Source: Geminicoccaceae bacterium (GTDB taxonomy: Bacteria > Pseudomonadota > Alphaproteobacteria > Geminicoccales > Geminicoccaceae). Taken from it: DNA of 37,585 nt. Below the pieces are notes generated by a model, which was not told where the DNA came from, ran no database searches, and was given only the letters and a program-made list of their open reading frames with translations. The stretch covers positions 1-37,585 of the forward strand of contig JAABSG010000004.1 of the NCBI GenBank assembly GCA_011390475.1. The letters are read 5' to 3'. Both the position numbers and the translations under genes were made by a program. Shown one piece after another: positions 12,965-16,188 of this stretch. Each line of letters opens with the position of its first letter. The first letter of the stretch is position 1.

Positions 12965-12982
12965 TGTCCATCATCAATGACA
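12965..12982. promoter_or_regulatory. TGT-N12-ACA palindrome (PpsR/CrtJ-type site) in crtD-crtE divergent promoter
   Basis: TGTccatcatcaatgACA; a degenerate partner TGA-N12-ACA at 12991-13008 starts exactly 8 bp later and contains TTGACA. Confidence 0.65.
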
Positions 12983-13058
12983 GTTATGGGTGACAAGATA
13001 GATTGACACTCGGGTCCGACCACGTTTGGTGGCGCCCGAGGCAACAGGAGGCGAAGGC

Positions 13059-13961: not shown

Positions 13962-15161
13962 ATGGCGAAGAGCACTGCGCAAGAGGCGCAAGCCATGCCG
14001 ACTTTCGCTTGGCGTGATCGGCTGCTCGGCTGGCGCGACCGGCTGATCGCGAGCCCTCGGTTTCGCGAGCTGGCCGCCGCTTTTCCGCTCACCCGATTCG
14101 TCGCCCGGCGGCGGGCCGGGGCGCTTTTCGATCTTTGTGCGGGCTTCGTCTACACGCAAGTGCTGCTCGCCTGCGTCCAACTCCGACTCTTCGATGTCCT
14201 GGCGGAAAGGCCGGCGACCGCAGCCGATCTCGGCCGCCGGTTCGGCATGGGCGAAGAGGGCATGCTGCGCCTCTTGCGCGCCGCCAAAGCGTTGCGCCTC
14301 GTCGAGGATCGGGGGGCAGGGCGGTTCGGGCTCGGCCAATTGGGGGCGGCCATGGTGGACAACCCCGGCATCGCCGCCATGGTCGAACACCACACCATGC
14401 TCTATGCCGACCTCGCCGATCCCTTGCCGCTCTTGCGTGGCGAGGCCGGGGAGACCGAGTTGCAGCGCTTTTGGCGCTACGCCAGGAGCGACGATCCGGC
14501 CAGAGTTCCGCCCGATGCGGCCCTGGCCTATAGCCGCCTGATGGCGGCCTCGCAGAGCCTCGTTTCCGCCGAGATCCTGGCCTCCTACAGCTTCAAGAAG
14601 CACCGCCGGCTGCTCGATCTCGGCGGCGGCGACGGGACGTTCCTGCGTGCCGTGGCCAAAGCCGCACCCGGCCTCGAACTCCGGCTCTTCGATCTGCCGG
14701 CCGTGGCCGAGGGCGCTGCCGAGGCCTTTGCTGCGGCCGGGCTGACTGAGCGCGCCGGTGCCCATGGTGGCAACTTTCTCACCGATCCGCTGCCCGAGGG
14801 TGCGGATATCGTTTCGCTGGTGCGGGTCATCCACGATCACGACGATGCGGCCGCCCTGCGCATTCTGGCCCGCGCCCGAACGGCGCTGCCGGCGGGGGGC
14901 ACGTTGCTGCTCGCCGAGCCGATGGCCGGGACGACCGGGGCCGAGGCCTCGGGCGATGCGTATTTCGGCTTTTACCTCATGGCCATGGGCAGTGGCCGGC
15001 CGCGCACCAAGGCCGAGCTGGAGGTGATGCTGGGCCGGGCTGGCTTCGTCCGGCCCCGTCTTTTGTCCACCCGCACGCCGCTCTTGGCCCGGGTGATCGT
15101 CGCCGAAGCGGCGCCGCCACAGGGATCGGCGGGCCGCGGAGAAAGTGTAAGTCTTGCTTGA
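13962..15161 (+). CDS. crtF: Hydroxyneurosporene/demethylspheroidene O-methyltransferase
   Basis: O-methyltransferase with LLDLGGGDGTFLRAVAKAAPGLELRLFDLPAV; position between crtE and bchC. Start may be internal ATG (MPTFAWRD). Confidence 0.9.
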   Translation: MAKSTAQEAQAMPTFAWRDRLLGWRDRLIASPRFRELAAAFPLTRFVARRRAGALFDLCAGFVYTQVLLACVQLRLFDVLAERPATAADLGRRFGMGEEGMLRLLRAAKALRLVEDRGAGRFGLGQLGAAMVDNPGIAAMVEHHTMLYADLADPLPLLRGEAGETELQRFWRYARSDDPARVPPDAALAYSRLMAASQSLVSAEILASYSFKKHRRLLDLGGGDGTFLRAVAKAAPGLELRLFDLPAVAEGAAEAFAAAGLTERAGAHGGNFLTDPLPEGADIVSLVRVIHDHDDAAALRILARARTALPAGGTLLLAEPMAGTTGAEASGDAYFGFYLMAMGSGRPRTKAELEVMLGRAGFVRPRLLSTRTPLLARVIVAEAAPPQGSAGRGESVSLA

Positions 15162-15189
15162 CATACAAGGCCGTCAAAGTAACCTGACA
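15146..15189. promoter_or_regulatory. bchC promoter region: TGT-N12-ACA palindrome (15146-15163) plus degenerate CGT-N12-ACA (15172-15189), 8 bp apart
   Basis: TGTaagtcttgcttgACA overlaps TTGACA (15158-15163) and the crtF stop codon. Confidence 0.65.
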
Positions 15190-15237
15190 GGGTAGCTGAT
15201 CAGCAGTTGCACGGCTCGTTGGGAGGCGAGCACCGAC

Positions 15238-16188
15238 ATGAATACCCTTGCCGTGGTCCTCGAAGCCCCCGAACGTTTGGTCCTCAGCCGGCTCGACCTG
15301 GTCGCGCCGGAAGCTGCCGACGTCGTGGTGGACATGGAGTGGTCCGGCATCTCCACCGGCACCGAGCGCCTCCTCTATACCGGCCGCATGCCGCCCTTTC
15401 CGGGCATGGGCTACCCCCTGGTGCCGGGTTACGAATCGGTCGGCCGGATCACCTCGGCAGGACCGGAGGCAGCAGCCAGGGTCGGTGAGCGGGTGTTCGT
15501 TCCCGGGGCGCGTTGCTACGGCGAGGTGAGGGGGCTTTTCGGTGGCGCCTCGTCCCGCGTGGTCGTGGCGGCCGATCGGGTGACCCCGGTCGGTGACGAT
15601 TTGGGCGAAGAGGCCGTTCTCCTGGCGCTGGCCGGCACCGCCTGGCACGCCATCGAGGGCTCGCGCCGCGACGGCAAGCTCACGGCCCCCGACCTCATCA
15701 TCGGCCACGGTGTGCTCGGCCGACTCCTGGCCCGCCTCGCGGTCGCCATCGGTGGCGAGCCCACGGTCTGGGAACTCAATGCCGATCGCGCGCAGGGTGC
15801 CGAGGGCTACCGGGTCGTGCACCCGGACGAGGATTCGCGGCGCGACTACCGCGCAGTCTACGACGTCAGCGGGGACAGCAACATCCTGGATACGCTGGTC
15901 GCTCGTTTGGCGCCGATGGGCGAGATCGTGCTCGCCGGCTTCTACAGCGAGCGCGTCGCCTTCACCTTTCCCATGGCCTTCATGAAGGAGGCCCGGATCC
16001 GCATCGCCGCCGAATGGAAGACACCGGATCTGCTGGCCGTTCGCGAACACCTCGACGCCGGCCGGCTCTCCTTGGGCGGTCTCATCACCCATCGCGCAGT
16101 GGCGACGGATGCGGCGAGTGCCTACGGCACGGCTTTTTCCGATCCCGCCTGCCTCAAAATGATCCTCGATTGGAGGAGCTGTTCATGA
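15238..16188 (+). CDS. bchC: Bacteriochlorophyllide a dehydrogenase (2-desacetyl-2-hydroxyethyl)
   Basis: MNTLAVVLEAPERLVLSRLDLVAPEAADVVVDMEWSGISTGTERLLYTGRMPPFPGMGYPLVPGYESVG, BchC signature. Confidence 0.95.
   Translation: MNTLAVVLEAPERLVLSRLDLVAPEAADVVVDMEWSGISTGTERLLYTGRMPPFPGMGYPLVPGYESVGRITSAGPEAAARVGERVFVPGARCYGEVRGLFGGASSRVVVAADRVTPVGDDLGEEAVLLALAGTAWHAIEGSRRDGKLTAPDLIIGHGVLGRLLARLAVAIGGEPTVWELNADRAQGAEGYRVVHPDEDSRRDYRAVYDVSGDSNILDTLVARLAPMGEIVLAGFYSERVAFTFPMAFMKEARIRIAAEWKTPDLLAVREHLDAGRLSLGGLITHRAVATDAASAYGTAFSDPACLKMILDWRSCS

Follow-up and report, generated by a model that had tools for sequence, protein, structure and literature searches.

A putative two-site PpsR/CrtJ operator spanning the predicted bchC promoter of a Geminicoccaceae bacterium

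Introduction

Two palindromes resembling the TGT-N12-ACA sites of PpsR/CrtJ, a repressor of photosynthesis that responds to oxygen, stand in tandem just upstream of bchC in a Geminicoccaceae genome, within the stretch of DNA analysed here (37,585 nucleotides, hereafter the window), raising the question of whether they form an operator built into the bchC promoter or have another origin. CrtJ sites of this promoter in Rhodobacter capsulatus were reportedly described in original work by Ponnampalam, Elsen and Bauer in 1998. The original prediction, made from the window's letters, proposed such an operator here and considered a chance origin less likely.

Results and discussion

Architecture of the bchC upstream region

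Direct reading of the sequence reproduced exactly the predicted arrangement of TGT-N12-ACA, 8 bp and CGT-N12-ACA at positions 15146–15189. The upper palindrome (TGTAAGTCTTGCTTGACA, 15146–15163, plus strand) agrees with TGT-N12-ACA at 6/6 positions and the lower one (CGTCAAAGTAACCTGACA, 15172–15189, plus strand) at 5/6, with the 8-bp gap TACAAGGC (15164–15171) between them. A TTGACA hexamer (15158–15163, plus strand) lies inside the upper palindrome, and TAACCT (15180–15185, plus strand), of the form TAnnnT and with 3/6 matches to the −10 consensus, lies 16 bp past it, inside the lower one. In the R. capsulatus bchC promoter, according to excerpts of PMC5362033 and PMC6199135, CrtJ palindromes occupy −47 to −30 and −21 to −4, spanning the −35 and −10 elements. 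Placing this register on either palindrome gives the same predicted start, base 15193 on the plus strand, under which TTGACA would be the −35 and TAACCT the −10 element, with a 16-bp spacer. A strict promoter scan of the bchC upstream region found no promoter and a search for Rfam families found none; a terminator-like match on the minus strand (15190–15171) was rejected, being the lower palindrome itself.

A likely Shine-Dalgarno sequence of bchC, GGGAGG (15221–15226, plus strand), precedes the ATG at 15238 (bchC, 15238–16188, plus strand; TIGR01202, 442 bits). On the upstream side, a crtF-like methyltransferase gene (13962–15161, plus strand), the best NCBIfam match of whose product is a related methyltransferase under its cut-off, ends with a TGA stop at 15159–15161 inside the upper palindrome; the first site does overlap TTGACA and end 2 nt past this stop, as had been described. 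Downstream of bchC follow bchX and bchY and, at a greater distance, reaction-centre genes, and because all of these genes and the crtF-like gene are on the plus strand, the predicted bchC promoter is, judging from gene order, internal to a gene run of the crtEF-bchCXYZ-puf type.

A sister tandem (TGT-N12-ACA-N8-TGA-N12-ACA, 12965–13008) stands before crtE in the same window. It shares with the bchC pair a TGT-N12-ACA site, the 8-bp gap and one degenerate member, whereas that member is TGA-N12-ACA and the bchC-type −35/−10 register is absent. Both pairs score 11/12 at N8, each with one perfect and one degenerate member, as had been noticed. An N8 pair of the same kind precedes crtE in many relatives, in which the crtE/crtD intergenic pair roughly reads TGTCTATATT-N3-TGACA, N8, TGACAA-N7-TTACA; the TGA instead of TGT start of the lower crtE site is conserved among them.

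PpsR, its neighbour and the proposed function

The genome encodes PpsR (G000:C415), the sole protein above the family cut-off (517 bits vs 275.4), with a PAS region that matches R. sphaeroides PpsR structures. Its helix-turn-helix (HTH) segment ERLCIEAALELTGDNRASAAELLGLSRQSLY contains C458, a cysteine conserved in most of the PpsR proteins compared and, judging from its position rather than from an alignment to CrtJ itself, the putative counterpart of CrtJ C420. A gene for a B12-binding-domain protein lies just upstream of ppsR on the same strand, and its position and domain suggest an AerR/PpaA-like protein. In three genomes of the window's family, PpsR (L151, L155 and L156) has a tyrosine in place of the HTH cysteine, and the bchC operators of these genomes (L009, L011 and L012) are intact; since tyrosine-bearing PpsR coexists with intact operators, redox sensing via this cysteine cannot be universal.

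With the sites, their spacing, the embedded hexamers, ppsR and the B12-binding neighbour all read directly from the genome and their conservation from related loci, and with a pair that matches the R. capsulatus sites mapped at bchC exactly, the region is very probably a bchC promoter with a two-site PpsR/CrtJ operator, as had been predicted, for which redox-linked repression and AerR/PpaA-aided relief are proposed by analogy. Binding, cooperativity, redox and B12 control and the start site are carried over from R. capsulatus in the following scheme. RNA polymerase would use TTGACA-N16-TAACCT and start at 15193. One PpsR dimer would occupy the upper palindrome, a strong site that covers the −35 element, and another the lower, weaker one on the −10 element, and because only 8 bp separate the palindromes (26 bp between their centres), the two dimers might bind cooperatively. 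Under oxidising conditions the promoter would be blocked, switching off bchC and, by way of read-through, also bchXYZ and later genes; under reducing phototrophic conditions repression would be lifted, probably through reduction of the HTH cysteine and through the B12-binding AerR/PpaA partner.

It is conceivable, if rather unlikely, that the pair mainly serves anaerobic activation by PpsR together with AerR in an extended, wrapped complex and not aerobic repression. An AerR/PpaA-like gene adjoins ppsR in this genome, and excerpts of PMC5362033, PMC9144470 and PMC6199135 describe an extended footprint and activation at bchC by LAerR-CrtJ in R. capsulatus. However, activation and repression share the same sites in R. 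capsulatus, so an activator role would add to repression rather than replace it.

Conservation across bchC loci

The comparison covered 90 bchC loci of alpha-, beta- and gammaproteobacteria, 80 from species genomes and 10 from relatives found by whole-genome search, the window included. In this sample, which over-represents the nearest BchC proteins and in which at least two loci (L010 and L104) look like duplicates, a pair of at least 10/12 at exactly 8 bp was found in 78 loci, vs a mean of 0.34 and a maximum of 2 in shuffles; among the other spacings from 0 to 30 bp, the next most frequent reached 19 of the 90 loci. Going by these sequences, the N8 pair is found in most purple bacteria compared.

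TTGAC was present in 81/81 and TTGACA in 79/81 of the aligned loci, counts that are biased upward because TTGACA was in part a criterion for inclusion in the alignment. Neither the −10 element nor the lower palindrome's outer half-sites entered as such into this selection. The T, A and final T of the −10 element were found in 79, 79 and 80 of the 81 loci, and TAnnnT stood exactly 16 bp past TTGACA in about 79/81. Outside the hexamers, the upper palindrome kept G2 (81/81) and T3 (78/81), and the lower one GT at positions 2–3 (81/81), A16 (80/81) and C17 (81/81). The first base was T in 68 of the 81 upper sites; in the lower sites it was A in 28, T in 26, C in 21 and G in 6, so nearly unconstrained that one perfect plus one degenerate palindrome is the usual state. 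The commonest form was accordingly 6+5 (41/81 loci), to which the Geminicoccaceae pair (6/6 + 5/6) also belongs, and a degenerate lower site fits the weaker affinity of its R. capsulatus counterpart.

Although the crtF stop does lie inside the upper palindrome here, this overlap is not conserved: the stop falls inside the upper site or at most 2 nt after it in 24/78 loci, before it in 52/78 and beyond it in 2/78. We regard the overlap as incidental, since only that minority of loci shares the position, and a special role was rejected given this variation.

Genomes without PpsR or without the pair

PpsR above the cut-off was absent from 5/34 genomes, namely four of the nine without a bchC pair, plus Tychonema. 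Its absence was associated with absence of the pair (Fisher p = 0.003 without Tychonema, 0.012 with it) in a test that ignores kinship; two of the four genomes are sisters (Phaeospirillum/Magnetospirillum), and the remaining two are metagenome bins, which may be incomplete. The pair is missing from every one of these four purple genomes, and all keep TTGACA-N16-TAnnnT before bchC, by which conservation of the promoter and of the operator separate. Erosion of the operator is partial, as L092, one of the four, and its sister L057 keep upper palindromes (6/6 and 5/6, respectively). Such promoters, with −35/−10 kept and operator lost, provide a natural contrast to the two-site form.

These data bear on the idea that the promoter TTGACA-N16-TAnnnT alone is under selection, with the TGT/ACA matches as by-products and no action of PpsR. 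The ACA of the upper site does belong to TTGACA, and the −10 element does fall inside the lower site; nevertheless, the upper TGT and the lower GTCA and GACA are conserved outside the hexamers, and the genomes lacking PpsR keep the hexamers but lose the tandem, which leaves this idea very improbable. We consider it likely that a fused bchC promoter-operator, approximately TGTAA-N7-TTGACA-N8-NGTCA-N3-TAnnCTGACA, is kept across three proteobacterial classes, with the 8-bp operator spacing coupled to the 16-bp promoter spacer. In it, the lower site would have an almost free first base, and where PpsR is lost, the operator would erode while the promoter core stays.

Five Chromatiaceae (L071, L073, L079, L098 and L117) have PpsR and a strong N8 crtE pair (11/12 or 12/12), and neither a tandem nor TTGACA was found before their bchC, which means that the link between PpsR and the bchC pair is not universal; bchC may depend on read-through in these five. 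The cyanobacterial assembly Tychonema sp. LEGE 07203 (L075) contains a purple-bacterial bchC contig with a perfect PpsR pair and no PpsR above the cut-off; this contig is probably a contaminant.

Chance level of the tandem

Only two N8 tandems of at least 10/12 occur in the window, at 12965 (crtE) and 15146 (bchC), and an N8 tandem of at least 11/12 arose in the 240 bp upstream of bchC in 1 of 5000 shuffles. Whole-genome statistics (4.1 Mb) come from pattern searches in which the reversed pattern served as control. No N8 tandem other than the crtE and bchC pairs had at most one mismatch, and N8 tandems with two mismatches were not more frequent across the genome than the control. A third, weak tandem with two mismatches (C270:3097) was set aside; its contig is short and places it downstream of a gene for a MocR-like regulator, with no recognised photosynthesis gene nearby. 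Lone TGT-N12-ACA sites were not significantly enriched, either in the window (5 vs 2.36 expected) or in the genome (180 vs 161 in the control). A chance match in a GC-rich window is an extremely improbable source of the bchC pair, as the original prediction had leaned towards: single sites are near chance level, but tandems of at least 11/12 averaged 0.005 per window in 200 dinucleotide shuffles vs two observed, no other of equal quality exists in the genome, and the pair is kept in other bchC loci across classes, a conservation that refutes chance.

Comparison with known operators

CrtJ/PpsR palindromes are "typically separated by eight nucleotides", in the words of an excerpt of PMC9144470, and the two at R. 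capsulatus bchC are 8 bp apart, the upper having the higher affinity (excerpts of PMC5362033 and PMC6199135). The Geminicoccaceae locus likewise has two palindromes 8 bp apart, the upper on the −35 and the lower on the −10 element, whereas its lower palindrome begins with C and its start and operator function are predicted. It had been suggested that repression geometry may differ here, the degenerate member being downstream of the −35 element; this is not supported, as the lower R. capsulatus site also covers the −10 element, and since the R. capsulatus coordinates fit here, the layout is the standard one.

The Rubrivivax gelatinosus crtI tandem (TGa-N12-ACA, N8, cGT-N12-ACA; excerpt of PMC4452267) resembles the bchC pair in its 8-bp gap and cGT lower site. 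It differs, going by the same excerpt on crtI/pucB, in standing before another gene and in that both members are degenerate and that PpsR bound this 8-bp pair without redox dependence, a 9-bp pair being redox-dependent; because of this redox-independent 8-bp pair, redox control should not be assumed from spacing alone. The layout is thus already known from R. capsulatus and Geminicoccaceae bchC is a further case, which adds a concrete candidate PpsR operator, together with a predicted start site, for a new genome; the comparison also shows that the arrangement at R. capsulatus bchC holds generally, so that spacing and half-site mutants of one species become readable across others.
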